DNA from: a virus
Reading direction: 5' to 3' (one strand)
IMG/VR virus record: IMGVR_UViG_3300033553_000338
Location: 1 to 64,000 of that record
DNA: 64,000 bases
Part shown: positions 4,229-42,232 of the stretch, piece by piece
Layout: every line of letters begins with the position of its first letter
How positions within the stretch are numbered: the stretch's first letter is position 1
Translations under genes and position numbers: made by a program
The notes under the pieces: generated by a model
Told to the model about the DNA's origin: nothing
Databases searched by the model: none
The model's input: the letters and a program-made list of their open reading frames with translations, nothing else

Positions 4229-4517
4229 CCTTTGTTTTATTTTCTGGGTTATGTTTTATAATCATCTTCTCAATCCCTTGATGGATCGCGTCCGGGCTCT
4301 CATCAACATAGTAGTCTGTCCCGTTAGCTACTACTACAGTCATTTTCTCTTCATCATCAAAGTAAATGGCACTGATATGAGTGACATTGATCTTGTAGAG
4401 TGAAAACATCTTGAGGGAAACTCCGGGCTTGAAAAACCAGCCCAGGATTTCCTTGGTCCCTGGCTTTAACTTGTCCAGGATATTCTTTTCTATTAGTACG
4501 GGTAGTGTTATAAACAT
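4215..4517 (-). CDS. Protein of unknown function (100 aa) in the thyA operon
   Basis: A compact mixed alpha/beta protein with alternating strands (KINVTHISAIYFDD, MTVVVANGTDYYVDE) and a charged C-terminal tail. It overlaps the upstream nuclease gene by 10 nt and the downstream gene by 14 nt, so it is part of a tightly packed minus-strand operon with thymidylate synthase and the RecB-like nuclease. No catalytic motif or known family is seen. Confidence 0.6.
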   Translation of the reverse strand: MFITLPVLIEKNILDKLKPGTKEILGWFFKPGVSLKMFSLYKINVTHISAIYFDDEEKMTVVVANGTDYYVDESPDAIHQGIEKMIIKHNPENKTKDEHR

Positions 4518-6543: not shown

Positions 6544-6568
6544 ATTTCTTTTAAGGTCGTTGTGTTCA

Positions 6569-6576
6569 CAAATATA
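6569..6576 (-). promoter_or_regulatory. Host-type promoter -7 box (TATATTTG) of the thyA operon
   Basis: On the minus strand the bases read TATATTTG, the same octamer as the box at 2996-3003 and a full match to TAnnTTTG of Bacteroidota. It is 25 nt upstream of the preferred thyA start. The -33 region is weak (TTAG about 20 nt upstream). Confidence 0.55.
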
Positions 6577-6652
6577 GTGCATTAAGATCTATTATACTAA
6601 TAGGCCTTAGAAAAAATTTATCAAAAAGCTAGAAAAAAATTTCGTTAATCTA

Positions 6653-7582: not shown

Positions 7583-7730
7583 AAAACTCAGACCCCTAAT
7601 TAAGGTCAACCCTATTTTCGATATTGTCATTGACATCGAGACTGAGGAAAAGAACTACACCTTAAAGTTTGATGTAGCTCCTTTCCCCTGGATCACTCGA
7701 AGTACAACGGACTTATTCGTCCTCGAATAG
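7566..7730 (+). CDS. Small protein (54 aa) at the convergent boundary
   Basis: An ATG at 7566 lies inside the last codons of the HNH gene (17-nt overlap) and opens 54 codons ending with TAG. GGAGG-like sequence is not placed upstream, but the coupling to the HNH gene gives a route to translation. The product has a beta-rich pattern (FDIVIDIETEEKNYTLKF) and an acidic end, and matches no family I recognise. Its last 18 bases overlap the 3' end of the convergent 1474-residue gene, and no terminator separates the two strands. Confidence 0.45.
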   Translation: MEELNKKLRPLIKVNPIFDIVIDIETEEKNYTLKFDVAPFPWITRSTTDLFVLE

Positions 7731-10700
7731 CGGCTCAAACACTTTGGTAAACCCTGGATGTGTCAGGGTTTTCCAGGGGTTTGATAAAGCATTCTTCAAA
7801 ACACCCATGGCAGGAATAGCCTCTCCGGTACCCAAAATTGGTGTCGCTTGAATATGTCCAATTAGGTTGATCTCCTGTGCCGATGCTGAGTACATGTAAT
7901 ACCACACTGTATCCTCATCCTCATCATCAAACATGAGTCCCCCCAAACCAATCAAAGCCAGGATCATTGCCATATCTGCAACCATCCTTCTAAGGTTTGT
8001 TTTTTGGGCATCATTCAGTGGATCTCCCAAACCCATCAGCAAACTTATGTCTCGTTCTTTTACCGCTGCAACGGTGGATTGGATCATATCTCTAAGCGTG
8101 TAGCCTATCCCTTCCATGTACTCCCCTTCATAGCTGTAACTTACTTCCTTGGTCACCGCGTCAATAGTCTTTACCAGTTTCTTGTTGCTGGTCATCTGCG
8201 TTGGCCGCATAGCATATCGCTGTACTTTTTTAAACCACCAGTTCCGGTACTGGCCAAAGACAATCCCCCAAATGGTGTTTCTAAAATTTTCCTGATCCTC
8301 ATTATTCTGAGCATCAAAGGACTCATTGGCAAAACGCTTCATCCGCTGCATATCCATACTGGTATAGGCCCGGGCCATCGTGCCATCAGAGTTCAAGGAA
8401 CCCTCCTTACGCATTTCCTCAACCAAAAATTCCTTTAGCTTCTTACCATCTTCTCCTTCAAACCTGGGATCTTTATTCTCATCATAGGTTAAGTTCCCAT
8501 CAGCATCAACATCATAGGCTTTCATGGTTCCGTCATACATCATCTGGGAAATCATAAATACCGAACGGTGAAAATGATCACCCCCGTAGTTAATGAGGTT
8601 TTTATACTGGGAGTTGGCAAATCCACGCTTCCCCATCTGGGTCGCAAACCCGTTGATCAACTGATCCGTATCCGCATTGGCCAGCCCCATATTCCACATC
8701 AGCTTATTAGCTTTTTCTGATCCAGAAGGGGTCATAATATATCCATAAGCTTTGACCAGGTTTTTACCAAATTTAGGTACGGTAATGCCCGTTGAGATGG
8801 TATGGTAAAAGCCGGCAATGCCGTTCTTAATCTGTGAGAGAACGTTATAATCCAGCAGCATAATATTAGCACCCATCCTGGCAGCTGCAGCTGCTTTTGC
8901 ATAGGGAGATTCCTCCTCTGTAATCTGATTCTTTTGAAATAAGTTTTTCTCCGTATAATTTTTCAGATAGCCCATCAGGGTTTTATTGTTCCGAAACAAC
9001 GCGGACTCCGAGTAAGCAATGACTGCCTTAACAGATTTATATTCTGGAAGTAGCTCACTAAGATAGTCATACCTGTACTTATTGGCCATCGTATGTCCCA
9101 GGACACTTTCCAGGTTTGTTTCAATGGTTCGCGTTACCGGAATTACTTTCTGGTCATTGTCATTCCTTCGAATCTTAGTGGTAATGGCCTTCCCGTCAGC
9201 GGTGAATCCTAAGCGTTCCATCCGGCCAACATCTCCAAACATGGGGATGACTTCCCCTTGAAACTTTTTCTGCACTTCCAATTTATCAACAAGCTCTTGG
9301 TAATTATCCGATGCGAGTTCAATATACTCATTTTTAGAGGTGTAGGGATCAAGTACCCGTTTCACGTAGTTGGATCCACGATCCTTAAAGCTACCTTCAG
9401 CAGCTTTATTCCCAAAGAGGTCACCCGCACGGGTATCCGTGGAAGGAGCAATGGCAGGGATCATATCCTCATCCCAATACTCATTAAATTCTTCCAGACG
9501 CTTTCCTTCCAGCCCAGTAACCATTGATTCCCGGACTTTCTTTTTGTACCAGCCAATATATTCTTTCTGGACATCTGATAACAATTTGTACTCACTGGAA
9601 TCCTGCGGCCAAAATCTTCCGGTATGCCTGGAGACTTTGCGATCTGTACCATCATCGGTGAAGACCTCGATACGCTCCAGCAAGGGCTCATACACATCCG
9701 ATGCCCTGTTCATCGCAATACTCCCGGAAGTTTTGGTGTCTTTGATCAATTTCTTGTGCATTTTTTTACTCTCGCTAAAGAACTGATCGTTTAATGCCCG
9801 GTTCATCTCTCCTACCTTTCGTTGGACACGGCCAATGAATTCATCCACAATTTCAATGCCTGACATTCCCGGGTTAACCAGCTGTGCCTGAATAAATCCA
9901 ATGCTTTTAAAGTCAGAGAACTGGGCTGTCATCCCCTTTAAATCAAGGATTGCATTAGAAACGTAGAGATATTCAGGGTTATGTAAGTAGCCTTCCTTAT
10001 CGTGTGAAGCGGAGTTATACCCTTCAATATCGTGCTGTCTGGCTGTTAGTGCTTTAAGCATGTCTTCCCGGAACTCCTCATTTTTCATGATGATGTCCAC
10101 CGTACCGGTGATCCCCATATCCGTATAGATGTTGGAGAGTAATTTTTTCACACTTCCACCTTCCAGCCAGTTGTACAAACGTCCCTCCTGGGTTTTGTAG
10201 GAAGATCCTTTTATTTCCATGGATCCCGATACCTGCGTCATTGTCAGACCGGCATATCTCAGGTAGGCTTCAAAGGCACCATATTTGTAACTTTCCCGAT
10301 TCCGTACCCTCTCATCTTTAAACAAGTCTTTGATACTGGAGTCCACCCCATAATCAAAGTCCAGGATACTGGCTCCATCCACTTGTGCGGCCTCCATTAT
10401 CTTGAACTGGTCCATAACTTCAGATAATTGCCGGCCAATAGGACTTCCACTTGATTGTGTTCCAATACCCCCAACGGATAAGCGGTCCACCGGAGTATTG
10501 GGGTTATCTTTCTGAAGCTGCATGGCGATCAGTCCCATCCGAAGCATGTGAGCATTCTCCCGGGTATTGTACCAAATAGCAGTACCTCCTAGTCCTGCTT
10601 TTCCAGGTATACCCTTTGCCTTTGCATTGGACATGTACCTGCCAAGAATAGTTGTCCCTTTCTCCTTACGGGTAGGGGTTTTGAGTGTGATATCTTTATT

Positions 10701-12137
10701 TAAGGTCAGGATATCGATGGAGCTGTAGGATCCGGTTGTTTGGTTGTACCCCTTGTAAACCAGGACCACATCATCTCCGGCAGCTTCCATACCTTTTACA
10801 GTATTGGCTTTCACGGCACGGTCAATATTTCGGACGTACATCCTTGTCAACAGCTCCACATGGGTTTTATCATCACTGTGAACGGTTTCTGTAGAGAACG
10901 TCTCGGCCTCCCCCTCATTTAGATAACGAATAAAGTCATCCGCAGGGCTATTATAATTATCACTTATGGACTGGGCATGACTAGCTAAAATCTCTTCTGT
11001 TCTTGCCTGAACTCCCGCTAAGGTATCTTTATGGGATTCCGGGTTTGTATAGTAGGTTCGTTTACGGTTCTTGCCAAAGACAAAGTAATATTCCCCCGTT
11101 TTAGGATCCTGTGAAGATCCCATGGCAATCCGTGAAGCAGCATCTTTAGAGTCCAGGTTATCAAGCTCAATCCCAAGATGGGTATTGATAAACCCATTCC
11201 AGTCGGGCCGGCCATTGATTTTAAGTTTGACAGACCCCTTTTTGAACCCAGGTGCCGGGAAAAAGCCCCTGGAAATTCCCTCATTGATCCGGTGATCCCC
11301 AAAAATATCCTTATCATCAAAAGGAATGGGGTCCTGTGATTGGAACCCCTGGAGGAAAGCATCATCCCCGTCCACAACAATGTCAAATTCAATGGGCACA
11401 ATCGCGGCCCCCCGGACCCGTAATTTTTTGGCACCGGTCTTTGTATCCCCTACCTCCAGCATCCGCTTATACAGGTTAAGCTGAAGGTTATTCCCCCGTC
11501 TCTTACTGATCCCGGCATTGTCCGGTTTCCGATATTCTGATCCGGTACCTTTGAAGTCAAAGATTTCCAGGCTACCATCCGGGTAAACCACTGCAACGTC
11601 AACTGTACCTGCAACCCCCTTTTCAATGTTGGAGATTCGAAACTCGGTAAGTACTTTGTTCCGGCCCCCATCACTCCAGATTTGATACATCTGATTGACC
11701 TCTTTAACCCAGGATTTAAGAATCGCGTTACTCGCGTACTCTTTCTCAATATCGGAGAATTTCTTACCCTCGTTGAGTTTCGTAATCACTTCTTCAGCAG
11801 TATTATGAAATAAGGTACCCGACTTATTGGCTTTTACTCCACGAGCTTCCGGGGCACCTCCCCTATACTTGTAGGTCTCTTCAATAATATCTGAGACTGA
11901 TTTCAGAACCTTACCATCGTAATTGTACTCATGTACGTCAATCTTTTTACCATCACTATCCTCCCGTTCACCAACAAAATTAACTTTCTTCCCAGTCTCC
12001 TCGATCATCTTAACAACCTCATCCTGGGTAAGTTCATCTGGGATAACTTCGTTGGTGTTGGCTCCAGCTATGTACTTCAGCTGTTCTTCCAGGCTATCAA
12101 ATTCTATACCATCGTAGGTGCGTATGCAGTCTTTCAT
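7713..12137 (-). CDS. Giant virion-type protein with an N-terminal RecB-like nuclease domain (1474 aa)
   Basis: Residues ~100-230 carry a full RecB/Cas4-type PD-(D/E)XK set: SGTLFHNTAEE (H111), GTVDVAV (D180), EIFDFKG (D194 and K196) and NLQLNLY (Q219, Y223). The next ~1000 residues are helical and match no family I recognise. Near the C-terminus lies a hydrophobic helix (MAMILALIGLGGLMF) followed by an acidic stretch, which could contact a membrane. It is the last gene of the late block and overlaps the preceding gene by one base (TAATG). By position in the giant-protein block it is probably packaged in the virion. Possible roles are degradation of host DNA or processing of phage DNA at entry. 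Both are inference. Confidence 0.72.
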   Translation of the reverse strand: MKDCIRTYDGIEFDSLEEQLKYIAGANTNEVIPDELTQDEVVKMIEETGKKVNFVGEREDSDGKKIDVHEYNYDGKVLKSVSDIIEETYKYRGGAPEARGVKANKSGTLFHNTAEEVITKLNEGKKFSDIEKEYASNAILKSWVKEVNQMYQIWSDGGRNKVLTEFRISNIEKGVAGTVDVAVVYPDGSLEIFDFKGTGSEYRKPDNAGISKRRGNNLQLNLYKRMLEVGDTKTGAKKLRVRGAAIVPIEFDIVVDGDDAFLQGFQSQDPIPFDDKDIFGDHRINEGISRGFFPAPGFKKGSVKLKINGRPDWNGFINTHLGIELDNLDSKDAASRIAMGSSQDPKTGEYYFVFGKNRKRTYYTNPESHKDTLAGVQARTEEILASHAQSISDNYNSPADDFIRYLNEGEAETFSTETVHSDDKTHVELLTRMYVRNIDRAVKANTVKGMEAAGDDVVLVYKGYNQTTGSYSSIDILTLNKDITLKTPTRKEKGTTILGRYMSNAKAKGIPGKAGLGGTAIWYNTRENAHMLRMGLIAMQLQKDNPNTPVDRLSVGGIGTQSSGSPIGRQLSEVMDQFKIMEAAQVDGASILDFDYGVDSSIKDLFKDERVRNRESYKYGAFEAYLRYAGLTMTQVSGSMEIKGSSYKTQEGRLYNWLEGGSVKKLLSNIYTDMGITGTVDIIMKNEEFREDMLKALTARQHDIEGYNSASHDKEGYLHNPEYLYVSNAILDLKGMTAQFSDFKSIGFIQAQLVNPGMSGIEIVDEFIGRVQRKVGEMNRALNDQFFSESKKMHKKLIKDTKTSGSIAMNRASDVYEPLLERIEVFTDDGTDRKVSRHTGRFWPQDSSEYKLLSDVQKEYIGWYKKKVRESMVTGLEGKRLEEFNEYWDEDMIPAIAPSTDTRAGDLFGNKAAEGSFKDRGSNYVKRVLDPYTSKNEYIELASDNYQELVDKLEVQKKFQGEVIPMFGDVGRMERLGFTADGKAITTKIRRNDNDQKVIPVTRTIETNLESVLGHTMANKYRYDYLSELLPEYKSVKAVIAYSESALFRNNKTLMGYLKNYTEKNLFQKNQITEEESPYAKAAAAARMGANIMLLDYNVLSQIKNGIAGFYHTISTGITVPKFGKNLVKAYGYIMTPSGSEKANKLMWNMGLANADTDQLINGFATQMGKRGFANSQYKNLINYGGDHFHRSVFMISQMMYDGTMKAYDVDADGNLTYDENKDPRFEGEDGKKLKEFLVEEMRKEGSLNSDGTMARAYTSMDMQRMKRFANESFDAQNNEDQENFRNTIWGIVFGQYRNWWFKKVQRYAMRPTQMTSNKKLVKTIDAVTKEVSYSYEGEYMEGIGYTLRDMIQSTVAAVKERDISLLMGLGDPLNDAQKTNLRRMVADMAMILALIGLGGLMFDDEDEDTVWYYMYSASAQEINLIGHIQATPILGTGEAIPAMGVLKNALSNPWKTLTHPGFTKVFEPLFEDE

Positions 12138-15100
12138 TATTTACAAGTTATGTCGTAATTATTCATTTTATAGGCATCCAGTAACAAGGCATTCACCTGG
12201 TTGTAATAGCTGAATTCTCCGGAAGCGATTAAGCTTGCTTCAATCTCAGGGTTGCTCAGTGCCCGATGCATGGTTAAGGCTCCCTCAGCGACCTTCTCAT
12301 TGATCAGGATAGCCAGTTTTTCCAAGGTTTCCAGTGATCCATTCACAGCCCCCAGCTCGGTCAGTGTCTGATCGATGTGGGTCATAAACTCATTCACCGT
12401 ACCAACAAACCCAGAAGGATCCCACCGGCTGTTCGACTGGGAATCCAGCGTACTCAGAATGTACATGAATACGTTGTGTACGTGTTCATGGTCTTCCAGA
12501 CTCGGGTTTAGCTCCACAGACTTCTCGTAGGCTGAGGTCGTTTTTACCAGGTCCGCTACCCTATTGTAAAGGGATTCATTGGTCAGGCGTACTTTTTCAA
12601 AGAACAAGCCCCGCATCTGGTCATAAACAGTTCCATGTAAGATGTTGTCGGTATTGATATACAAGTTCCCCTGAAAGTAAAATACCTTCTCCCCCTTCAG
12701 CTCCTGCGGAAATCCTTTGGTTTTATTGATCTGTTCCTGATCAATCTTCAAAGCTCCAACCCTGGAGTGTGAAATAAGACCATCCACCGCATATACCCGG
12801 GAACTGTGAGCATACTCCTTCGAGAGTTTGCTTGATTGTACAGCTCCACGTTCATCGGTTGCTATTCCCAGGTAATCCCCCAGGATCTGATTGATGTCTT
12901 CCTTAAAAGCTTCCACCTCTGCCACGGGTTTAGTGGTTGACCGCATCCTGTCCGACAATACCGTCATAACAGGGGTTCCCCAGAATAGAAGAGCCAGGGA
13001 AGTATTTCGATCAATGTTGGACCGTTCTGAGTTGTAAAAGCTTGCTTCATCCAGAATACCACTCTTTAAATTGGAGGGCATCGTTTTCTCGGAAACTGCG
13101 TAGCCGTAGCTTAGCTTATTTTCAAAGAGTTCATTATCGAAGTCATTCAACATGGCAAACTCTTTTTTCACCTTTTCCAAACTACTCTCCTCAAGGCCTT
13201 TCAGCTTATCAGAAATATTGGTTGAGGGGACAAACACCTTACGTCCATCACTTAAGACGATCAATGTTCCATGTACAATCATGGGTTTTGCTGTCGGGTC
13301 ATTGCGCTGTAAATCAACGGAGTGTCCCGGATTAACCGACTGGATGGTTGCAAGTACCCCGTTTAGGTTCAAAGGCTCCTTGGCCAAAAAAGTGGATTCA
13401 ACATCTGCGTGTAAGGTAGCCCGGATTTTATTATTCAGCTCCTCCAGCTTGACATGGGCAACAATGGCCACATCCTCCCCTACTTTTACAGGATCTCGCT
13501 CGGAATAACTTTGGAGAATGATCTCCTCCGCTGTTCCCGACTCTGTGGGCAGGAAGGTGATATCAATATTTTCCCCATCCTTCAAGTTTTCTCTGGAGTA
13601 TGGGTCAGGACTGTTGAGGTTATTGATGATCTGGTCTGCAAAAGTTTCCCGGGTTACAGGGGGTTCAAACTCCGGAGTTTTCTGCTGGACCGTTGATTTG
13701 ATGTGCTGCTTCTTCAGCTCCCCCTCATCTTCCGGCTGGGTGGTTGTTGGGTCATTGATAAGGACCTCCGCTATCTCAACCTCTTTTTCCTGTTGAGTCA
13801 TCGGTTCCCCATTCAGGAACTTCTTGAAGGTTTCCGGACTCGGGTTTTGCACACTGGCCATAAAGTCCCAGTACATTGCTGCAACCAGGAAGGGGTCAAT
13901 ATCCCCTTTCTTTTCAAGGTGTTTCTCAATCAAGGTAACAATCTCTGGGTCAGCCCCTTGTAATTGGGTGACCGGGATAATCCCTTCATAGAGTCCGGAG
14001 AATCCAAGCAAAGTTTCGGCAGTCAGGATAGCGGAATCCACGCTTCGTACCATCTTAAAAAGCTGAGTGGCTTCTTCCCTGCTACGTGCGTAGCTGGTGA
14101 TATCAATACCCGAAGCGTCATTGGTGATGATCTTCTTCAAGAACTCCAGCTCCGCTTCAGAAAACCGATCGGTGTCAATAACATCCTTCAACGCTACCCC
14201 TTCGGGGATGTAGATCTGGTTACCCAGGACACTTGTAATTTTAGAATTTCCAGTCCCCATTAAGCGGAAAATAAACTCGTGATCGTAACTGGGAAATTCG
14301 GTGATCCCTGCAAGGGTTTTTCTAAGGTACTTCAACCTACCCTCTTTACGGCTAAGGTTTTCCGGGGCCAGCTGTTGTGCCGTTCGGTTGTCATAGTTAT
14401 CCCAGATACTTTGGTTGGTGTCGCTGAGGGATTTTAACAGGTTTCGGTATTCCTGTGCATATTGGGTAATCAACTTGGTATCATCTGCATCAATAGCCTT
14501 TTCGTATTTCTCATTCAGATCATTGAAAGATTTGTTGAACAGCTCCTCCACACGGGCCATATCCATGCTCATAGCCAAGGAATTACTAAAACTATGAGAG
14601 GGATCACTGTAACCTGAGGATTCGCGTACAGCCGTTTTCTGATCGGCCCACATCGCAGTTTTCAAGATACCATCCAGATCAGCATTTTTCATCTGGAGTA
14701 TTCCGGATACGCTGTCCATAAACGTTTCCTTTAATCCGTAAAATTCCAGAATACCCATCATTGCTGGGGTACTGAATACGGAGTCAATAAAATCCCGGGT
14801 AGTTGTGGCATTAAAGTTGATTCCTTCCAGGGTTCTTATATCCTTACCGGTAAGCCCTTTCAGAAGTGCTGAGAATCCTTCACCGTAAACTCCCCCTGCT
14901 CCAGCCGGAATGATTTCAGCCTTCAGTAGGTCGAAGATCTTCTTCTGAATGGTAACAATACTCAGGGTGTGGCTATTCAGCGGGGAAGTACCAATGCTGT
15001 TTAGAATAGCTGCCTTTACAATTTCCCGAAGCAAGATAGCTTCGAAGTCTTCTTCCCCGGACCAAACATCCTCACGCATGACAATGTTGGATCCTTGTGT

Positions 15101-16063
15101 GTGATTTTCCACAAAGGCTCGTGGGGCTCCTTCAACGGATCCCAGGTATACGGTGTCGTTAAGAGAGTCAGAAAGGCTTAAGACTTTCCTTGATTCCTTT
15201 GTTCCAGTTTCTCTTTTAGTCTCAGCAGAATCAGCGTTGGACTTATTCCGGTGCTTTTTGCTGCCTCTTTGACGATCTTTTGTAGTTGTTTTTTCTGCAT
15301 TTTGTTCTTCAAATATGATTTCATTAATAAGTTCGGTGACCAGCTCTTCGGAGTCCAAGTCAGAATTCTGGGAAAGATACGCTAAAACTTCGTTTAATTC
15401 CTCATTAAATTCCTCTGATTTCATCTCCTCAGCCACCTCAGCTGGAGTGTACTGCTTTCCGTACCCGTCCGCGCTGGACTCCCCGGTGAGCTCGTACATT
15501 TCAAATAGCAAAGCCTTCGAAGATCCTGCCAGAGACTCCACTTCCACAAAGATATTAAGGGCTTCCTCTTCCGATTGAATCCCATACTTCTCTTGTAGGG
15601 TAGCCATCGCAACATCCATGGTTGTTGTACCTGGGATTGGAAGATCCGACAATAACCAGTGTAAAGCTACATTAAATGGATCTTTACTTTTTGGGGCATG
15701 TCTCAGGACGTACTCCAGTCGCATATCTTTGCTTGCCCGGCCCCGATATACCGTATCGTCCTTGATGACATCCTGGAGCTTCTTTGCCAGCTTCACGGCT
15801 TGAGGGTTTTTTCCGTTCTTGACAATATTGGACAGTACCGTATAAACACCGGCTTTGGCCCTGTTCTTACCAAAGTAAGTGTCAAAGATAGGATCAGTCC
15901 CCGATCCGGGAATAGGTAAAAATTTATGGGATGGGTCTCCGGGTACTACCGATGATACACGATTGTTTTCAAAGGCCTCCCCATTATTTGCTGCCCGGGA
16001 AGCTGCCAGGCTCGTTTGGTATACCTTATCCGAACCTGGCAGTGTTATTTTACAATTACTCAT
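12137..16063 (-). CDS. Giant virion-type protein with a possible zincin site (1308 aa)
   Basis: No confident overall family. Near the C-terminus a HEHVH sequence (H1192, E1193, H1196) fits the HExxH zinc-protease motif, and E1225 in VNEFMTH could be a third ligand. A second stretch (AILLREIVKAAIL, around residue 350) resembles a protease helix in which the histidines are replaced by R and K, as in an inactive copy. An acidic and basic low-complexity segment lies near 270-300. The gene has its own TTCGTATATTA promoter motif 22 nt upstream and overlaps the next gene by one base. Probably packaged in the virion with its neighbours. If active, it might process virion proteins or host targets. Confidence 0.6.
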   Translation of the reverse strand: MSNCKITLPGSDKVYQTSLAASRAANNGEAFENNRVSSVVPGDPSHKFLPIPGSGTDPIFDTYFGKNRAKAGVYTVLSNIVKNGKNPQAVKLAKKLQDVIKDDTVYRGRASKDMRLEYVLRHAPKSKDPFNVALHWLLSDLPIPGTTTMDVAMATLQEKYGIQSEEEALNIFVEVESLAGSSKALLFEMYELTGESSADGYGKQYTPAEVAEEMKSEEFNEELNEVLAYLSQNSDLDSEELVTELINEIIFEEQNAEKTTTKDRQRGSKKHRNKSNADSAETKRETGTKESRKVLSLSDSLNDTVYLGSVEGAPRAFVENHTQGSNIVMREDVWSGEEDFEAILLREIVKAAILNSIGTSPLNSHTLSIVTIQKKIFDLLKAEIIPAGAGGVYGEGFSALLKGLTGKDIRTLEGINFNATTTRDFIDSVFSTPAMMGILEFYGLKETFMDSVSGILQMKNADLDGILKTAMWADQKTAVRESSGYSDPSHSFSNSLAMSMDMARVEELFNKSFNDLNEKYEKAIDADDTKLITQYAQEYRNLLKSLSDTNQSIWDNYDNRTAQQLAPENLSRKEGRLKYLRKTLAGITEFPSYDHEFIFRLMGTGNSKITSVLGNQIYIPEGVALKDVIDTDRFSEAELEFLKKIITNDASGIDITSYARSREEATQLFKMVRSVDSAILTAETLLGFSGLYEGIIPVTQLQGADPEIVTLIEKHLEKKGDIDPFLVAAMYWDFMASVQNPSPETFKKFLNGEPMTQQEKEVEIAEVLINDPTTTQPEDEGELKKQHIKSTVQQKTPEFEPPVTRETFADQIINNLNSPDPYSRENLKDGENIDITFLPTESGTAEEIILQSYSERDPVKVGEDVAIVAHVKLEELNNKIRATLHADVESTFLAKEPLNLNGVLATIQSVNPGHSVDLQRNDPTAKPMIVHGTLIVLSDGRKVFVPSTNISDKLKGLEESSLEKVKKEFAMLNDFDNELFENKLSYGYAVSEKTMPSNLKSGILDEASFYNSERSNIDRNTSLALLFWGTPVMTVLSDRMRSTTKPVAEVEAFKEDINQILGDYLGIATDERGAVQSSKLSKEYAHSSRVYAVDGLISHSRVGALKIDQEQINKTKGFPQELKGEKVFYFQGNLYINTDNILHGTVYDQMRGLFFEKVRLTNESLYNRVADLVKTTSAYEKSVELNPSLEDHEHVHNVFMYILSTLDSQSNSRWDPSGFVGTVNEFMTHIDQTLTELGAVNGSLETLEKLAILINEKVAEGALTMHRALSNPEIEASLIASGEFSYYNQVNALLLDAYKMNNYDITCK

Positions 16064-16085
16064 TGTCTATCTATTAATTAGTATC

Positions 16086-16096
16086 TAATATACGAA
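16086..16096 (-). promoter_or_regulatory. Late promoter motif TTCGTATATTA
   Basis: An exact copy of the 11-base motif on the minus strand, in the 37-nt gap between the RNA polymerase gene and the 1308-residue gene, 22 nt from that gene's ATG. No terminator precedes it, so it probably boosts the last two genes. Confidence 0.6.
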
Positions 16097-16100
16097 ATAA

Positions 16101-24641: not shown

Positions 24642-24642
24642 A

Positions 24643-27600: not shown

Positions 27601-30600
27601 AATGATTGGTTTGCCAGGTGCCCTGCGGACTTTAACCTTTGCTTTGAAATGGTCAGCCCCCAAAGAAGGGATAGAAACGACTTCCCCGTTAGCAGTTTTA
27701 ATAAATGCTTGGGAAACAACTTCCTCAATAATAACTTCACCGGCTTTCAGACTAGGATCTATCACCGGATCCCCATCAATGGCCATAGTATCTTTATCAA
27801 AAGTTACAGAGCTATCAAAGGAAGTCATCTTATAACCTGCCTTTTCAATGAGTGCCCTAACCGACTCTAGTGCAGGGGTAAGATAGCTGCTCAAATTAGT
27901 GTCCTGGGACGATCTATCCAAGGCTTCCAGTAGCTTAACACTAAGCTCATAGTACACATAGGAATCCATTGGTGACGAATCCATTAAGTACAGGATGTCC
28001 AATAAACTCTCCCGGGTACGGTCTACTGCTTCTCCGGAGAATTTACTAGCATCCTCCAGTTCCTTGATGGCATCATTCAGTATTTCTTTCTCAGTACGGA
28101 TGGCATCATTCAGTTTCATTGCCTCCACAAAGGCATCCTTGTCAAACAAGGTAGACAGGAACAGGCTGTTTTTGAAAGCAGCATCAATGGCATCAGAGAT
28201 ATCAGATGCACGAACCAATCCATCCAGCTTCTTCAATAAAAGATCAACTTCCTGGTCCATCATTCCACGGAATTTAGTGTGATCATCTCCTTCCCACTTG
28301 CTGTAGGCATCCATCACAATGGTATACAGCTCTTTATATTTGGTAAGCATATCGGGCTTGATAGTAACCTTAATGTCACCCCCGGTAGCAAGCTCCTTAC
28401 CCGTCAAAGACTTTTCAAGGTCACTTAAAACCTTTCGAATCTCAACTCCCTTTTTCTTGTAGGTGTCAAAAACTTTAGAATTTAATTTAGCCTCCACGTT
28501 AGGGACAATGCCTGGTATGGTTACAATCTTCCACCCGGTAGCTTTCTTGATCAGGATCCCCTTCTGAGCCCTGGATACGGCTGTATAAAACAGCTGGGTC
28601 ATGATGTTGTTTCTCTCCACATGTTGCATGGTATTCAGGTGGGGAATATCCACAATAACCTGGTCGAATTCCTGGCTCTGTGCATCGTGTACTGACATAA
28701 CCGGGATACCAAACTCTTCAAGAGCCGCATACGCTTCCGCATCCTCCTCTTTGGTTACGGTGGTAACAATAACAATCCGATTCTTATTCTTCTTTTCATC
28801 CGCATGATCCACAGCCAAAGCACGTTTAATACGCCCTTTAACCATAGCATTCCAGTCATCAGCATCAGTTGCAATTTGAACACCAATATCCTGAGATATC
28901 CCATCAACTTTCTTAACCTCGTAAGTCAGAGTAACATCCTTTTGCTCTTCGGCCATGTTTTTAGTGGTCTCAATAGCCTCCCGGATTGTTTCGAATAATT
29001 GGGTGTTGGATAAATAACCTGTTCGCTGAGAGGACCTGATAATCGGGGTCATCTCAATACCTGAAAGCTTATCAATCCCGTTGGTCATGATGGTGTTATA
29101 GTTGTTCCCCTTCATGGTTATGCTGGATGCCTGTAAAGGATCACCCAAGCCTAAGATACGTATATCACTGCCTTCATTGTTTTTGTTGAACTCCCGAACA
29201 GCATCAGCCAACCGGCTAACTTCCGAAGCTGGAAACCGGGTAATCTCATCAATAATAATGAGGTCGCTGTTAACGATGGATTCATCTGACCCATTCAACA
29301 GCCCAATAAGGGTCTCGATATCAAGATCACCATCATCATTAGTTGGGGTTTCCTTAGGGACTATACCTGTATCCTTCAGCCCCTTTACCAAAGTCTCTGC
29401 CTGAGATTTACCAGGAGCCAACAATACAACATCTCCGGAACCTTTCATCATCTTAACTACCGCAGCGATGTAAGTTGTTTTCCCAGCTCCCCCAATTCCT
29501 CGTACATATCCCAATTCAGGGATAAAGTTCTGAGCTGAATTTTCTTTAATTTCTTTATCTGACAACCCGGCAGTATCCCCAAAATGTTGAGCCTGATCGA
29601 ATCGGCTCAGCCAGTTCAAGGTATACTTACCTTTTGTACCCAGATACTCCACACTTGGCTCCAAGGGACTTGTGAGCTTCACGGCCATTTGAATGACTGC
29701 ACGGCTCTGCTCGTATGTTGGTGAGCTAGTAAAAGTTAACCTGGCAACATCCTGTTCAAATGATTGCTGAACAGTTGCAAACGATTCACGCGACATCATC
29801 AGGTAGTAGGCGTACAGTACCCGGGTGTTTTCAGAAAGCATCCTGGACTCAAACTTACCCAGGTTGATCTTCATTTTGTCTTCCTCAGAAAGGGTCATCA
29901 GATAGATATGGAGCATTAACTCCACCTCTTTGATTGCAGCCCACTTCTCGGTGACATTATCCTGGTTCGTTCCATCAATATCCCTGAATTTAGTCAAGGC
30001 ATCCAACAGAGCTGTTTTAGTTTCCGAAATATCGCTTGCGGGAAAGATAAAGGTAGTAATCAATTCTTCCAGCATATCACCAGTGCTTTCCATCTTGGCC
30101 ATATCATTAAGATACACTCCACGGATGGACTCCCCTTTGTTTCTGTACAAAGTATTGATCAAGAAATCCAGTACATGTCCATCCAACAAGGTGTCATTGG
30201 AGTGTGCGCTGAAAGCCTTGGCCACGTATGTAAGAGATTCATTTACTTTCGACTCCAAAGTCTTGGCTTCCTCTTCTGAAGTACTTGGATCATACATCTT
30301 GTAAAGGCTATCAGTAGCATCGTCTGAGATGATCGTCTCAATCTTATTTTTGAATTCAAACTTATCCTTGTTGACAGCCTGGAATTTATGAAGTTGAGGC
30401 TCAATGCTTAAAATACTGCGTATGAACTCTTTACGGTCAGACATCACTTTTCGTATCCGTTCTAAGTTCTCCATATCCCCATCGTAACTCTCGGGACCTG
30501 CGGTATTAAGGGCAATCACTTCCTCCTTAATCTGTGAATGGATATACTTACCCCCTTTCCGGTCGTAGTCCAGATAGGCTTTCATAGCTCTCTGTGATGG

Positions 30601-33600
30601 ATCCAGATCATGATCCCAGGAGATTAATTGAATTACTGTGTTCATCGCACTCATCCGGTCACTTCCAACCGACTTAATTAGAGATTCCTTTTTCGGAGCA
30701 TCTACTGTGTCGTTGAGGTGTTTGGCCAGCTCAGTTGAGTAGAGAATATTTCCCTTCTCCTCTTCTACTTTCTTGATAAACTCAATCAGTTCATCGGAAT
30801 CGGTAATCTGCAAAGCCTCATCGTGACGTTGACGGGATGCCTCACTGATTTCATTGAATTTGAAGTTGTAGTGGGCAAAGTCTGCCACTTTAGTGATGGC
30901 TTTATCGGTAGCATCGATAGCTTCCTGAAGTCCCTCAACATCTGAGGATTTCAAAAATTCAGAGGCCTCAACAAACTCATCACTGTTAGGATCATAAATC
31001 CCATCAGGTCCTTGTGGGAGAGCATAGTTAAGACTAATCGTCCTAAGGTCAGCTAATTTACGGCCAGGCTTTTTTAAATCCCGAATTACCCTGGCAAAAG
31101 CGTCATCTAAAATTCTCTGCCCCTCTGATCCTGGTTCAATATTCTGAGTTATCTCAATGTTAGTTTTTATTTCCTGCATGCCGGCCAGGAATGCCTGTTT
31201 AATCTCTTCGCTTACCGGAGCATTTTTTAAGGATTCCAATATCCTCTTCTTATCCTCTTCCCTAAGGTCTGGGAGTTTGTCATTCAAGATCCTTAATTGC
31301 CTCTCTTCGGGGGTCATATTCTCCAGCTCGTCCACGTAGTTTGCGGAAATCTTACGGATGCTTGATTCCTTGACATCTTCTTCCTGGAAAAACTTAACCT
31401 CTTCCATCATCTCCTTACGCATGGCTTTCCATACACTGTAACTGATATAGTCTGCATCCCCCTTCTTGGAAATACGACCATCTGAATGTTTATTGGCATC
31501 CTGAAAAAGCTCAAACAATGCCTTCTCGTAGTATTCATTGGCAGACTTACCCTGAACAATGTCACGTACCTTTTCAGAGGCAGCTTCCATTTTATCCTTG
31601 ATAGTCTTAATTTTCTCCTTGAGTTCTTTCTTCGTTCCCTCTGGAGTTGACTTATCGTCCACCTGTCGCTGCAGCTCCTCAACATTGGCATCTTCCTTCA
31701 CAATGTAAGAGATGTGGTTGGCCATATCGTCCAAAGCATCTGTCATCTGCACGGTTAACTGATCTCCAAAGGCTTCCTGGGTTTTACCAGACCAGATCTC
31801 TGCCATGGCTTCCTTAATTTCCTTAGGACTCTTATCCTTAAACTCTGGAAGGTCCTCAACGGCACGTTTCATTTGCTCATCCGAATGCAGTTTAATATTC
31901 TCCCACAGGGTTTTAAAGGCATACTCATTGGAATCTGCCTGAGATACACGTAATACCTCATCGGTAGAGCTTGAATCAACTGGTCGGTACTTACCCCTTT
32001 CATCACGGGCATAGGAAAGCTTCTCACTTCCGAAGGCTCCCTTAGGTTTTTTAGCGATCATAACATCAATGATATTGCGCTCCTCAGCTGTATTTGAGGC
32101 TTTTACCATTGTTTTTATGTAATTGTCCGAAGTAATGCGGGTAACTTTTTTACCCATGTTTTGATTCAGGAGTGATTTACCAATACCACCACCGACAGAA
32201 CCCATCGCACCGGCAAATATTGCTTCTTTTGCAAATTCGCTGAAGTCATGTTCCGCAAACCTTCCGTCACCAACTTCTTTTCCTTTTCCCAAGGTGGCGT
32301 TGTACATCCATTTAAGGCCGTACTCTTCTGCAGTTTCAACAGTTTCCTCAAGCCCCTCTGACATCATAGCTCCCAGGTATGCTTTCACCCCAGTGGATCC
32401 TGCAGATTGGTAAATGTCAGAAACTTTTTCTCGCATAGAATTAAAAGTAGTAGCCATCAGGCCACCTTCCTTAGCTGCTTTTTCCGGGGTAATATTCTTA
32501 ACTCCTTGTCCCGTAAGTCTCTTTATGTGGGACTTAAACAGATTTGCTTTAATCTGCTGATCGAAAGTCTCAGGGTAAGGTTTGATAATGTTCTCGGTAA
32601 GCTTAGAGGCAAACCCGTACATCAGGGCAGAAAAAGAGGCATGCATGATTAAGGCATCCCGGTCGGATAACCCGCTTTCCTTAGCTTCCCTGGCAAAATC
32701 CTCGGTAGCCATCATACTCATCGACCCACGGCCCATAAAGGAGCTGATACTACTAACCATTTTCTTTTGGGCTGCGGAGACTGTTTTATCAGCATAGTAC
32801 GATTCGAAAGCTTTAGTAAATCTCTTTCGACCTAACTCACCTGCCAATTTGGAAGACCGTAATCCCAGTATAGACGGTACAATTTTGGTAACGGCTTGCA
32901 TACCTAGCAGCTGTGGAACGATATCTCCAATGCTGTTGGTCATGTTATTCAGGTTCCACATACTCTGCCTGGACCGTTCATCCATTTCAAAGGAGTACCG
33001 TTTCAGGTAGTTCTGAGTCATGTTCATGGAACGCATGAAAGAAGAGTCCTTGTCAGCTCCCATGGCAGATCCAATAGATTTGCCAAGCTCTGCAGTTCCG
33101 GAGATTGCTGAAGATATAAATGTTGCAATTGCAGTATAAGGAATCACTTTAGGAATCTGTCTCGCGGCTACACTGAAAAATCCCTGGTCCACCTTATTAC
33201 CATCGAGGAACCCAAAGTTTTTGGCCAGGGCTCCTGAATTGAAAATGGTCACGATATCATCAGTACTATGGATAGTCTCCCCACCATCAACACGTTGGAT
33301 GAAAGGGTTACCATCAACAGTCAGCTTAGGCATCCCTTCCTCATCCCTGGCTACTCGCCATAGGTCAGAAGTCATCATCTGCTCAAAGGTGCCCGGGGCA
33401 TCTTCAAATTTCCCGTCCTTAAGCTCTCCCATGGCCAGGGCAACTTGCTTGTTGGTCTTGGTACGTACACGCTCACCAAATAAGGTAGATGAATCCATAG
33501 AGGCAAAAGAGCCCTCAACAAGGTTCGCGATATTGATCTCTCCCAGGTACTTCTCTCTAAAGACACTCTCCAGGTAGTCCCCATCGGTGTCAGAGATAAA

Positions 33601-33939
33601 AGCCTTAGCTCCCAGAACATCATGATCAACCGTTTCCCGAACGCTGTTTATCAAGTGTAGCTTGTCGTAGAAATTGTCAAAATCCTCCTTACCTTCAAAT
33701 TTCTCTTTGATGTTGTCAATTTTCCAGTAATCTTCCCGGTTACGGAGACTGAAATCGACTCCCTGATTCTCCGTCAGATCATACGCTTGGTCGAAGCTCA
33801 TTCCTTTGAATTCGCTGGGATCGTCACTTGCACTAAATATCAGGCCCAGTAAGTCCGGGGCATTTGACTCAACTTCTATCTTTTTTCCAAGATCCACTTC
33901 CTGGGAAGAGTAATCCTTCATTGCTTCGTTATCGCCCAT
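24643..33939 (-). CDS. Giant virion-type protein containing an SF1 helicase (3098 aa)
   Basis: Residues ~1470-1800 contain a complete superfamily 1 helicase of the RecD/Pif1/Dda style: GIGGAGKTT (motif I, near residue 1480), LLAPGKSQAETL (Ia), IIIDEITRF (II, near 1560), GDPLQ (III), RSSQRTG (IV), VHDAQSQEFDQVIVD (V) and YTAVSRAQKG (VI, near 1783). All key residues are present, so it should bind and hydrolyse ATP and move on DNA. The first ~600 residues include hydrophobic and Gly/Ala-rich helices (YTAIATFISSAISG, AIFAGAMGSVGGGIGKS) that might insert into a membrane. The regions either side of the helicase are long and helical. It overlaps the previous gene by one base and directly precedes the virion polymerase gene, so both are made from one message. 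Confidence 0.82.
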   Translation of the reverse strand: MGDNEAMKDYSSQEVDLGKKIEVESNAPDLLGLIFSASDDPSEFKGMSFDQAYDLTENQGVDFSLRNREDYWKIDNIKEKFEGKEDFDNFYDKLHLINSVRETVDHDVLGAKAFISDTDGDYLESVFREKYLGEINIANLVEGSFASMDSSTLFGERVRTKTNKQVALAMGELKDGKFEDAPGTFEQMMTSDLWRVARDEEGMPKLTVDGNPFIQRVDGGETIHSTDDIVTIFNSGALAKNFGFLDGNKVDQGFFSVAARQIPKVIPYTAIATFISSAISGTAELGKSIGSAMGADKDSSFMRSMNMTQNYLKRYSFEMDERSRQSMWNLNNMTNSIGDIVPQLLGMQAVTKIVPSILGLRSSKLAGELGRKRFTKAFESYYADKTVSAAQKKMVSSISSFMGRGSMSMMATEDFAREAKESGLSDRDALIMHASFSALMYGFASKLTENIIKPYPETFDQQIKANLFKSHIKRLTGQGVKNITPEKAAKEGGLMATTFNSMREKVSDIYQSAGSTGVKAYLGAMMSEGLEETVETAEEYGLKWMYNATLGKGKEVGDGRFAEHDFSEFAKEAIFAGAMGSVGGGIGKSLLNQNMGKKVTRITSDNYIKTMVKASNTAEERNIIDVMIAKKPKGAFGSEKLSYARDERGKYRPVDSSSTDEVLRVSQADSNEYAFKTLWENIKLHSDEQMKRAVEDLPEFKDKSPKEIKEAMAEIWSGKTQEAFGDQLTVQMTDALDDMANHISYIVKEDANVEELQRQVDDKSTPEGTKKELKEKIKTIKDKMEAASEKVRDIVQGKSANEYYEKALFELFQDANKHSDGRISKKGDADYISYSVWKAMRKEMMEEVKFFQEEDVKESSIRKISANYVDELENMTPEERQLRILNDKLPDLREEDKKRILESLKNAPVSEEIKQAFLAGMQEIKTNIEITQNIEPGSEGQRILDDAFARVIRDLKKPGRKLADLRTISLNYALPQGPDGIYDPNSDEFVEASEFLKSSDVEGLQEAIDATDKAITKVADFAHYNFKFNEISEASRQRHDEALQITDSDELIEFIKKVEEEKGNILYSTELAKHLNDTVDAPKKESLIKSVGSDRMSAMNTVIQLISWDHDLDPSQRAMKAYLDYDRKGGKYIHSQIKEEVIALNTAGPESYDGDMENLERIRKVMSDRKEFIRSILSIEPQLHKFQAVNKDKFEFKNKIETIISDDATDSLYKMYDPSTSEEEAKTLESKVNESLTYVAKAFSAHSNDTLLDGHVLDFLINTLYRNKGESIRGVYLNDMAKMESTGDMLEELITTFIFPASDISETKTALLDALTKFRDIDGTNQDNVTEKWAAIKEVELMLHIYLMTLSEEDKMKINLGKFESRMLSENTRVLYAYYLMMSRESFATVQQSFEQDVARLTFTSSPTYEQSRAVIQMAVKLTSPLEPSVEYLGTKGKYTLNWLSRFDQAQHFGDTAGLSDKEIKENSAQNFIPELGYVRGIGGAGKTTYIAAVVKMMKGSGDVVLLAPGKSQAETLVKGLKDTGIVPKETPTNDDGDLDIETLIGLLNGSDESIVNSDLIIIDEITRFPASEVSRLADAVREFNKNNEGSDIRILGLGDPLQASSITMKGNNYNTIMTNGIDKLSGIEMTPIIRSSQRTGYLSNTQLFETIREAIETTKNMAEEQKDVTLTYEVKKVDGISQDIGVQIATDADDWNAMVKGRIKRALAVDHADEKKNKNRIVIVTTVTKEEDAEAYAALEEFGIPVMSVHDAQSQEFDQVIVDIPHLNTMQHVERNNIMTQLFYTAVSRAQKGILIKKATGWKIVTIPGIVPNVEAKLNSKVFDTYKKKGVEIRKVLSDLEKSLTGKELATGGDIKVTIKPDMLTKYKELYTIVMDAYSKWEGDDHTKFRGMMDQEVDLLLKKLDGLVRASDISDAIDAAFKNSLFLSTLFDKDAFVEAMKLNDAIRTEKEILNDAIKELEDASKFSGEAVDRTRESLLDILYLMDSSPMDSYVYYELSVKLLEALDRSSQDTNLSSYLTPALESVRALIEKAGYKMTSFDSSVTFDKDTMAIDGDPVIDPSLKAGEVIIEEVVSQAFIKTANGEVVSIPSLGADHFKAKVKVRRAPGKPIIEGDYLHVLNLLTEEDRSEIITKHGKKSGGIIRNEIERAMRNGNNEDAYRKWNQLQADKELRKSDLSDLEKAKIEFATRSGVDSIYFMHTKGLDNLANSAMVKMENMDPLTDLEKIFLTMYYNVIAEDANKTHLDLLLKLVEGVDEKSKNLINSLLGMTHQNNIDVFATESLITLANNISEIDFSKVKFEAEIKAHLAQLLEKFKNAGFAFIQGTKEIEADYAKSPKNYSVEKIPGTDTKEVIESMKSPIYDASGNLVKPGYVRIALPKKKDQSGGGGDTKPQGKITRTFKNDDKSARKTKLLTAASNGEILNYLWLNVDLTPNSTRKLTLADFHRLKMEATNALQESEVSFRLKKGFVAENLENEVGAAIFSKDAIEDVNNGREILYIEATVPDSVTGEYFTIVYSVMPLDGNILNMDTNYPDLNIAELYDRINGLKGSIPTEGLDITSAMKNGTSKRIVKGRFTNTGIKLGVTLSEFMRSHSPNGTKTPLTFSDDVYVLTSNIVGEDGNTVAKKGQAYLVASPNKAKTILNETIKDLVQGDWTKVSDDVLLVPVREKARSLDEIIEDYHKLTDPKYASFLASASQLNRFLRAGNNMIAELRSKEGKETKVEKMFFQIKNHKLSNGKKLFSKPKEGEWYNVDPAAFIEFLETLRSEDKQTFDEMWQWFKKIPKKGFDNEYKIKPDVKDANGTVIKKGEKYVHNLNYNRGFFGNFPMNTGSKITHEKKASIDVSTVKGLEGSGLSLDDVAVIPYDTVTAPSVVFTDSGIQRIVDSASEQITKSEKSKLMKAQKAVIMDLHTLATSSNLDMSQDSGLLNRLLGYRDQLRIGRDKVDNHVTEMDLSMERSTVLNYADAQLNRIDEEIMKEEVRLKQLAGQGKKLGTFEDLQKELKSLSKTLLSDDAMVQFFNSPKVGLSLEWILNNYAMKILGLDNAGNPAIMDAVNEQRFETAFNNLYAYNLDYALRLEKYENIILNYKKVNNICKI

Positions 33940-35804
33940 TATAAGTTTGTTAAATCTTTGAATGTTAGTAATTTACCGCTAGACCGGTTAATGTTTAATC
34001 TGCCACCTTGCTCCTTACTCTTCATGTACAGGTTTCCGGTAATTGCCTTCTTGATTGGGTAGTTGTCGTTGAGGGGAACGATGATTTTGGTTCGGAACCA
34101 TTGATCAACCTCGCTTTTCGCGTTGTATCCTGTTTTTCTGTAAAGATCTTCCAGTTCCGACTTATCTGTTACAGCACTTGCTCCTGCCTCTGTCATCAAT
34201 TTTTTATCGTCTTGACCAATCCAAGCATCATCAGTAGGAAGAAACCCTGCATAAACAATGGCAGGTTTAAAGGTTGTATCGTTCCCAAAAATTAAAAACT
34301 CTTCGGCAAGCTTTACAAGCTGGTCCTTAAATACGTTAGGGTCATATTTATCAGCATCGTCAACCATCGACTTTTTAGCCTCTTCCAGGAGCTCACCTTT
34401 TCTTTTATTGTAGTCAACAATGTCCTTACCCTCTTTAGTAATCTCAGTCATCACCTGTCCCTTTGAGTTTACAGGTACCATAGTGAGAAGTGCTTGTTCT
34501 GGTATCATTCTACTGACAATGGCATGAACGTTACCCCCAAAATCCCCTGCTGATTTACCCTGAATTCGGGCACCTTCAAACACCAGGGATGAGCTCACTT
34601 TCGAAGATCCTATAGGAGTCAGTTGATCACCATTCTTGTATGCACCTGGCTCTACCTGAGTTCCTATAAGTCCTTTAAGGTCACCTGAAGTATATGCGTG
34701 TCCTTTATCCCCCAACACATCAAGGGCTGACTCATCGGTCAACTCTCCCTCTATACTCGTGGAATGGCTCTCCTTGGCCCTTTCTGCAATTAACCCATAG
34801 ATGGATTTAGTCATCTCGCTATCCAACGCTTTTTGGAAGGCTTCTTTATCTACAAAATCAATTCCTTCAATCTTTCTCATTGCAGCATTACGCAGATGCA
34901 TTTTTGACGCGGCACTGAGTCCCAGATTTGTTCCCAGCAATCGATGAATCGCAGCCTTAAGATTCTCCGCATCAGAAGAATCCTGGGTTCCCTTGGTTTC
35001 TTCCACCAGCCTGTCCGGATCCCAACCAGCGGTAACCAGTAAACTAGCCAGATTTGTATTTCGGAGAAAATCAAACGTGGTTTCTTTTTTACCCTCAGTG
35101 GTACTTCCCACTTGTTTCAGCTGAGTGTCAATCTCATCCATCACTTTGGTCTCGCCATTGACTGCACCGGTAATCTGCTTAAGGTAAATGCCGTTCTTGC
35201 TACCCATTCCGGTATAAGGGGAATCCTTACTGGTATGGATATATTGCAGTGCCTGGGAGTTAGATATTAAGGAATACTTTCCGGTACCTTTAGCCCTGTC
35301 TTGGTTGTACTCAAAGGGAGTGATCTCCTTAAATTGTCCCGTAGCATTATCAATAGCCACCAGGTTTGAGGAAGTCAAGTCTGTAACAAATTCTTTCTCA
35401 GACCCGTTAGTTCCAACCCTTGTCTCCGCAGCATTCGCTAATTCTTTACTCACCTTCAACTCATTGGGTGCGCGGTACAGGATACTTTGAAGCTTGCTCA
35501 AAGCAGCAATACCGTCATGGGTCTCTATCCAGAACCGGTCAGTTAATGTCTTCTCCTTTATCTGATTTTGAAGTTTAAGCACCTCATCGATAACTGCGTT
35601 CCTCTCCCCCATCAAGCCATCAGCCTTTATCAATTGATCCATATCAATCTCGGGGATCTGAACTTCTTCCTGGGGGTTTAATACATCTGACAGGTCAGCA
35701 TAAGGATTATCCTTTGGAGCAACCTGATTCTCTTTCCATTTGATTGGGAGAGCTTCTTGAACGGCCCCACCTTCCTGAAATTTCTTAACACCTATGTAAT
35801 CCAT
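33939..35804 (-). CDS. Putative virion protein (621 aa), first gene of the polymerase/helicase operon
   Basis: No known domain is recognised. The N-terminus carries KKFQEGGAV, a short double-glycine motif that also occurs in several neighbouring proteins. The rest is a soluble alpha/beta protein with a long helical stretch (residues ~60-110) and a basic C-terminus (SKEQGGRLNINRSSGK). It is the first gene after the promoter motif at 35827-35837 and overlaps the helicase gene by one base, so it is made together with the helicase and the polymerase. A role in packaging or delivering them is an inference from this context. Confidence 0.6.
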   Translation of the reverse strand: MDYIGVKKFQEGGAVQEALPIKWKENQVAPKDNPYADLSDVLNPQEEVQIPEIDMDQLIKADGLMGERNAVIDEVLKLQNQIKEKTLTDRFWIETHDGIAALSKLQSILYRAPNELKVSKELANAAETRVGTNGSEKEFVTDLTSSNLVAIDNATGQFKEITPFEYNQDRAKGTGKYSLISNSQALQYIHTSKDSPYTGMGSKNGIYLKQITGAVNGETKVMDEIDTQLKQVGSTTEGKKETTFDFLRNTNLASLLVTAGWDPDRLVEETKGTQDSSDAENLKAAIHRLLGTNLGLSAASKMHLRNAAMRKIEGIDFVDKEAFQKALDSEMTKSIYGLIAERAKESHSTSIEGELTDESALDVLGDKGHAYTSGDLKGLIGTQVEPGAYKNGDQLTPIGSSKVSSSLVFEGARIQGKSAGDFGGNVHAIVSRMIPEQALLTMVPVNSKGQVMTEITKEGKDIVDYNKRKGELLEEAKKSMVDDADKYDPNVFKDQLVKLAEEFLIFGNDTTFKPAIVYAGFLPTDDAWIGQDDKKLMTEAGASAVTDKSELEDLYRKTGYNAKSEVDQWFRTKIIVPLNDNYPIKKAITGNLYMKSKEQGGRLNINRSSGKLLTFKDLTNL

Positions 35805-35826
35805 ATAAATACTGTATGTTAGAATT

Positions 35827-35837
35827 AAATATACGAA
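35827..35837 (-). promoter_or_regulatory. Late promoter motif TTCGTATATTT
   Basis: A one-base variant of the motif, 22 nt upstream of the ATG at 35804 and downstream of the terminator at 35888-35926. It would drive the 621-residue, helicase and RNA polymerase genes. Confidence 0.6.
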
Positions 35838-35887
35838 TTTTATACAGGTTTACCAAGTCATTTATAACTGAAAACGTTATACCAGGT

Positions 35888-40253: not shown

Positions 40254-40293
40254 CTCTTGAATATTTTAGTTCGAACTTTTATTCGTTAAGAAG

Positions 40294-40304
40294 TAATATA
40301 CGAA
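40294..40304 (-). promoter_or_regulatory. Late promoter motif TTCGTATATTA
   Basis: An exact copy on the minus strand, 4 nt beyond the stop of the DUF192 gene and 40 nt before the ATG of the Pro/Ala/Gly-rich gene. Confidence 0.6.
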
Positions 40305-40308
40305 TTTA

Positions 40309-42187: not shown

Positions 42188-42204
42188 AGTTTAACTGTTT
42201 ATTA

Positions 42205-42215
42205 TAAGATACGAA
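42205..42215 (-). promoter_or_regulatory. Late promoter motif TTCGTATCTTA
   Basis: A one-base variant of the motif, 17 nt upstream of the ATG at 42187 and between the muzzle gene and the cysteine-cluster gene. Confidence 0.55.
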
Positions 42216-42232
42216 TAATCAGCGAGATTCCA

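Follow-up and report, generated by a model that had tools for sequence, protein, structure and literature searches.

Crassviruses outnumber all other viruses in the human gut. Here we examine a block of four giant genes from one viral genome, contained in a 64,000-base window (positions 1 to 64,000 of the 157,880-base IMG/VR virus record IMGVR_UViG_3300033553_000338), and compare it with the described systems that it resembles. In phicrAss001 (crAss001; Steigviridae), virions were found to contain the cargo proteins gp45, gp46, gp47, gp49 and gp50 (PMC10172136) and, as in the window, the block of these proteins follows the muzzle gene. In the Cellulophaga phage phi14:2 (KC821624), gp76-gp82, with the giants gp76-gp79 among them, are annotated as structural from tandem mass spectrometry (MS/MS), and the gp76-gp81 block matches the window in gene order. 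The virion RNA polymerase (RNAP) of N4 and the polyvalent proteins (PMC5512222) are also giants with several domains, and they are predicted to enter together with the DNA; zincins fused to N4-type virion RNAPs have already been described in that work, and helicases were proposed to act on injected DNA. Some crassviruses have been noted to carry PD-(D/E)XK domains in their large transcription proteins (PMC7886860), and the role of gp47 was left open (PMC8375218). Against this background, the four giants of the window follow an apparently undescribed rule in the placement of their cysteines, which suggests that they may be delivered as one disulfide-linked string.

In transcription order, the minus strand (on which all window features given below lie) encodes a 2296-amino-acid (aa) muzzle protein first, followed by proteins of 1313, 621, 3098, 2846, 1308 and 1474 aa. 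The last four, adjacent and with the sizes and coordinates that the initial annotation had assigned them, are a giant with a central superfamily 1B (SF1B) helicase (3098 aa; 24643..33939), a virion-type RNAP (2846 aa; 16101..24641), a zincin-family protein (1308 aa; 12137..16063) and a protein with an N-terminal PD-(D/E)XK nuclease (1474 aa; 7713..12137). Together they hold six cysteines in 8,726 aa, all of them at junction ends and none internal, where about 92 would be expected from the other open reading frames (ORFs); under uniform models, the probability of this depletion is 1e-31 (Poisson) and that of the placement about 1e-17. At the first junction, the single cysteine of the helicase giant (aa 3096; 24652-24654) faces RNAP aa 3 (24633-24635); at the second, RNAP aa 2846 (16104-16106) faces aa 4 of the zincin-family protein (16052-16054); and at the third, aa 1307 of the latter (12143-12145) faces the single cysteine of the nuclease protein (aa 4; 12126-12128). 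The RNAP and the zincin-family protein, which have no cysteines besides these, thus start with M-x(1-3)-C and end in C, while the helicase giant carries only the C-terminal cysteine and the nuclease protein starts M-x-x-C and lacks a terminal cysteine at its other end.

The same block occurs in the same order in 14 or more records, comprising two human-gut crassviruses without annotation, MT835470 and MT835492, together with relatives from IMG/VR; these records use the standard code or read TAG as Q or TGA as W. These relatives were gathered via the capsid protein, a peptide-pattern search of IMG/VR for close relatives of the helicase giant having found none. Like the window, they have the four-giant block with an SF1 helicase, an RNAP, a zincin and a homologue of P0001, and obey the cysteine rule; unlike the window, they keep the zincin motif intact and often have a degraded nuclease motif, and several show stop-codon recoding and introns.

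Across 18 phages, both cysteines of the junction rule (a protein ending "…C" followed by one starting "M-x-C…") were present at 54 of 56 junctions, and none of the 18 chains had a cysteine at its outer ends. One of the two misses is a start-codon trimming artefact, and in the other the cysteine lies at about -26. Sets of 2, 3, 4 and 5 proteins conform, as do sets whose genes are not adjacent, and the rule extends to a Lightbulbvirus. The phi14:2 giants have four cysteines in 5,398 aa, likewise at junction ends only, and the rule also holds in the Suoliviridae phages cr55_1 and cr4_1, in cr111_1, cr106_1 and phi17:2, and in crAss002 (Intestiviridae); Suoliviridae with two giants have one cysteine pair, and phi17:2 conforms although its giants show no detectable homology to the families described here. 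Where a giant is split, a new pair appears at the break (the helicase giant in MT835492 and G020, the RNAP in G001 and G024), whereas intron-like gaps gain none (the RNAP in MT835470, G016, G019 and cr108_1). In crAss002, the sole cysteine of gp32 lies at -2, and the annotated start of gp33 (L101, MN917146), a 4245-aa RNAP protein, lies 32 codons ahead of an MSC start; because the rule points to this internal start, the annotated one is probably 32 codons too early.

In principle, nucleotide signals at the ends of genes, such as start/stop overlaps or translational coupling, could produce such a pattern as a side effect, as could an overall avoidance of cysteine, given that several junctions overlap or abut and that C1/C2-like cargo proteins are cysteine-free too. 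We consider this very improbable. Both TGT and TGC encode the cysteines concerned, whose positions vary from residue 3 to 5 on one side and from -1 to -15 on the other, and a promoter sits between the genes at the 16063/16101 junction. In crAss001 and cr106_1, moreover, the first giant is convergent to the other two and the rule is still obeyed (in crAss001, at the end of gp47 and the starts of gp50 and gp49), which excludes gene overlap and translational coupling. An operon or overlap artefact was therefore rejected on the convergent genes and the mixed codons.

It is very likely that the giants are carried in the virion and delivered into bacteria. The initial annotation had held that only the polymerase among them was known to be injected, which is incorrect as far as presence in virions is concerned, as homologous giants were found by mass spectrometry (MS) in crAss001 and phi14:2. 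Its suggestion that all four travel in the particle holds by homology and synteny for three of the four activities: the homologues of the nuclease and zincin proteins are structural by MS, not non-structural, and only the helicase has no such counterpart. Likewise, the combination is not wholly undescribed, because homologues of three activities in known virions, together with published domain notes, mean that the package was known in outline; the variant with a helicase is new. To our knowledge, injection itself has been argued experimentally for the polymerase alone.

The expression signals of the block agree with this placement. In line with the two promoters initially proposed, the element WTTCGTATATTW is found before the 621-aa gene (at 35837) and between the RNAP and 1308-aa genes (at 16096). 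The former late promoter-like element (35818..35839) precedes the 621-aa, helicase and RNAP genes, and the latter (16077..16098) the zincin-family and nuclease genes. Further copies lie in the window at 40285-40306, 51382-51403 and 57004-57025. The genome holds 12 copies as compared with about 0.5 in shuffles, mostly on the minus strand ahead of capsid and tail genes, and WTTCGTATATTW, a phage-specific element, is often followed by TCTTAAC or similar. As the element is common to capsid and tail genes, the giants are probably late genes. The late promoters count against the view that the helicase, nuclease and zincin are non-virion replication or recombination factors that merely neighbour a virion polymerase, as do the virion homologues of three of the four proteins by MS and the presence in the genome of a separate Dda-like helicase. 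Although SF1 helicases and PD-(D/E)XK nucleases also occur in these phages as separate genes of the replication block, we regard this view as unlikely.

The question is then how the giants are delivered. On balance we lean towards the block encoding the virion cargo of a crassvirus with a large genome, delivered as a disulfide-linked string, and we consider it an evenly balanced proposition that crassvirus giants in general form one head-to-tail string of this kind, which reduction would take apart once it is in the cytoplasm of the host. Late in infection, the four giants would be made from the late promoters and, by homology, packed in the capsid beside the portal. The cysteine pattern suggests that each giant is paired through its C-terminal cysteine with the N-terminal cysteine of its successor, giving a string of 8,726 residues in the order helicase, RNAP, zincin and nuclease, which would be threaded unfolded through the tail with its N-end first and would separate into its members once in the reducing cytoplasm. 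Inside the host, the polymerase would transcribe early genes, as shown for phi14:2, while the SF1B helicase may move on or open the entering DNA for it, the nuclease may process DNA ends or host DNA, and the zincin, where active (not in this phage), may cut giants or a host target. This model fits the published view that cargo unfolds during extrusion, that C1 exits N-end first and that the order needs control, and the pattern would be the first evidence, at the level of sequence, of physical coupling among the giants.

It is also possible, if rather doubtful, that the giants are virion cargo delivered separately and that their terminal cysteines are docking or packaging marks that form no disulfides, for example where ends meet at the portal or hold a metal. 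The virion evidence fits such separate delivery equally well, and crassvirus tails and gp57 are known to contain disulfides, with none reported for the cargo, which the maps left unresolved. The arrangement of the cysteines speaks for the string instead: they form donor and acceptor pairs at every junction and never occur at the two outer ends, whereas a generic packaging mark would be expected on the first or last protein as well.

Several observations weigh against the disulfide-linked cargo string. We know of no report of a disulfide between cargo proteins, and the cysteine pairs could be metal-binding or recognition sites. Three relatives (G017, G018 and G024) hold many internal cysteines, so the depletion is not strict. 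Among proteomically studied virions, none contains a counterpart of the helicase domain. For the zincin-family protein of the window, the core of the predicted fold (predicted local distance difference test, pLDDT, about 80) gave no significant PDB match in a structure search, and no homology of the 621-aa and 1313-aa proteins (P0005 and P0006) to C1 or C2 was detected by hhalign or Pfam. As for earlier descriptions, the word 'cysteine' is absent from PMC10172136, where disulfides are reported only in tail and portal-vertex proteins, and the rule is not mentioned in the literature compared, which did not include the RNAP structure paper.

The feature that most clearly sets this block apart is the helicase. 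Neither crAss001 nor phi14:2, the latter with three giants rather than four, has one, and among the polyvalent proteins UvrD-type SF1 helicases are limited to actinomycete plasmid proteins (PMC5512222). In the window, the core spans aa 1470-1800 (28540..29532), with the motifs GIGGAGKTT, IIIDE, GDPLQ, QSQEF and YTAVSR. The SF1 assignment made initially is borne out by Pfam matches to AAA_30 (7.6e-11) and UvrD_C_2, by the presence of all motifs and by a RecD/Dda-like fold: in a Foldseek search, the AlphaFold model (pLDDT 63) matched RecD of RecBCD (4.4e-11) and T4 Dda (2.1e-9), as well as RecD2, Dna2, nsp13 and Upf1. The structure prediction that had been called for supports the helicase as an SF1B fold; for the window's zincin-family copy it gave no significant match. 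Motifs and model together confirm an SF1B helicase, for which 5'-3' activity is predicted. All 17 giants, from the window and 16 relatives, keep motifs I, II, III, V and VI intact. Family hidden Markov models (HMMs) gave no match for the helicase or the zincin at default filters and were rerun with domain alignments and filters off; under these settings, an HMM built without the window recovered the window helicase (1.2e-15). The helicase-domain model matches 26 of 35 records, several outside its training set (e.g. G014, G015, G022 and G023), and none of the 8 comparison phages (crAss001, phi14:2, phi17:2, cr111_1, cr108_1, cr106_1, cr128_1 and Dulem virus 41). The helicase therefore appears, from these profile matches, to be an addition made by this large clade to the delivered set, though a published mention in Yutin 2021 is possible.

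A separate 459-aa Dda/RecD-like SF1 helicase is encoded in the replication half of the same genome (G000:114174-115553, plus strand; helicase match 114267-114740), so the giant's helicase is a second copy. Its most plausible role, held tentatively, would be to open the incoming DNA, or move along it, for the polymerase delivered alongside; it might possibly process DNA ends together with the nuclease, and a part in counter-defence is conceivable but somewhat unlikely.

The polymerase is the best anchored of the four. As initially annotated, it carries a DFDID catalytic motif (aa 1956-1960; 18762..18776), and its family is homologous to phi14:2 gp77 (hhalign 96.5%, E 1e-9) and to crAss001 gp50 (92%). 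The protein phi14:2 gp77 is the crystallised and structurally solved virion RNAP. A tblastn search of the RNAP against annotated phages gave no match, and phmmer searches of the RNAP, helicase and nuclease proteins against PDB sequences gave nothing meaningful. The N4 RNAP, by comparison, is of the single-subunit T7 type and not of the two-barrel type. In MT835470 (L009/L010), the RNAP gene is interrupted by about 1 kb at its catalytic DxDxD codons, near 41941-43002; interruption at these codons is reportedly a feature of zeta crassviruses.

In the 1474-aa protein, the RecB-type PD-(D/E)XK domain (aa 95-260; 11358..11855) contains GTLFH, GTVD, EIFDFK and QLNLY. A match to PHROG 298 exonuclease (E 3.8e-6) and an intact D...DxK...QxxxY signature (GTVD, IFDFK, QLNLY) uphold its description as RecB-like. 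The motif is intact in the window and about six relatives; in roughly half of the relatives it is degraded (YNFK, YLFK or lost). In the gp47 family, which the domain matches at 97.2% (E 4.6e-11), GEVD...IYDVK is intact, and the C-terminal half of the 1474-aa family matches phi14:2 gp76 and crAss001 gp49 (hhalign, E 2e-7). Just past the giant block, at window positions 4508-5515 and 5515-6582, two genes were recognised by eye, one for another PD-(D/E)XK-like nuclease and one resembling thymidylate synthase.

The possible zincin of the initial annotation stands as a family homologue and falls as an active enzyme. In its zincin-derived region (aa 1118-1307; 12143..12712), VYDQMRG replaces the HExxH motif; the motif and the third-ligand EE are kept in 15 of 15 relatives, and both are replaced in the window copy. 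An HEHVH sequence at aa 1192-1196 was considered as the zincin motif and rejected as a chance match, as it sits at the third-ligand helix instead. With VYDQMRG at the HExxH position and HEHVH at the wrong place, the window copy is, judging by its residues, probably catalytically degenerate and not a protease. Against the zincin family HMM it scores 10.9 (independent E-value 0.0012), a collinear but weak match, with 6.7 as the best of 100 shuffles; its membership of the family is thus modestly indicated by sequence and backed by gene order and collinearity. The family itself matches the gp47 family (E 1.2e-4) and cr108_1 (E 1e-5), in both of which HExxH and EE are intact, and phi14:2 has HExxH in gp76 and gp81.

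These comparisons bear on crAss001. There, gp50 corresponds to the RNAP and gp49 to the C-terminal domain of the nuclease protein, and the terminal-cysteine pairs join gp47, gp50 and gp49. Unlike in the window, the nuclease and zincin are fused in gp47, with motifs intact. The N-region of the helicase giant also matches gp47 (88%, E 3e-6) and, because this region and the nuclease and zincin families all match it, gp47 looks like an N-region joined to a nuclease and a zincin.

The phage itself is a crassvirus, given that the muzzle protein (42233..49123) matches Pfam crAss_MUZ (E 4.5e-19) and the window's major capsid protein matches annotated crassvirus major capsid proteins (tblastn, E down to 5e-15). 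Large genomes and stop recoding in its relatives are suggestive of a placement among zeta crAss-like phages (proposed Echekviridae). Between the muzzle and the giants, the cysteine-free P0006 (35955..39896) and P0005 (33939..35804) occupy the C1 and C2 cargo positions, where P0005 is placed by synteny. Pfam found no match in P0006 to crAss_CARG1, the portal-binding domain of C1, for which crAss001 gp45 scores 2.3e-66, and a lysozyme-like domain at the P0006 N-terminus is a weak match only. In C1-type cargo, a CX7-8C pair makes up the sole cysteines (aa 390/398 in crAss001 gp45, with equivalents in cr111_1, cr106_1 and phi14:2 gp80); P0006, unlike these, lacks it. F/Y-(K/Q)-x-GG motifs recur in late proteins (KKFQEGGAV, LFKKGGSIQ, SYQEGGILG), at window sites 33939-35804 (N-terminus), 35955-39896 (aa 1249) and 40922-42187, and are also present in the C1/C2-position proteins of relatives.

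Read by eye, an ORF outside the window (G000:90672-92339, minus strand) resembles a full-length GroEL-type chaperonin; few phages would be expected to encode one, and it may have a bearing on the refolding of ejected or assembled giants. A ParA-type ATPase-like ORF (69306-70088, plus strand) and a plasmid-type replication initiator-like ORF (151463-152464, minus strand), also seen by eye in G000, suggest that a phage-plasmid lifestyle is possible.

What is new here is the clade-wide helicase variant, the domain map of gp47 and, above all, the terminal-cysteine rule. The domain mapping proposes a make-up for gp47 and shows a large clade adding an intact SF1B helicase. The rule, which applies in all the families examined, including cases in which no sequence homology can be detected, offers a way of correcting gene starts and of separating real protein breaks from introns. 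Structural work has left open how more than 5 MDa of protein is ordered and threaded through a narrow tail (PMC10172136). If true, the disulfide string would be a previously undescribed, order-wide mechanism of ordered protein ejection, by which unrelated enzymes (helicase, polymerase, protease and nuclease) would leave the virion in a fixed order.

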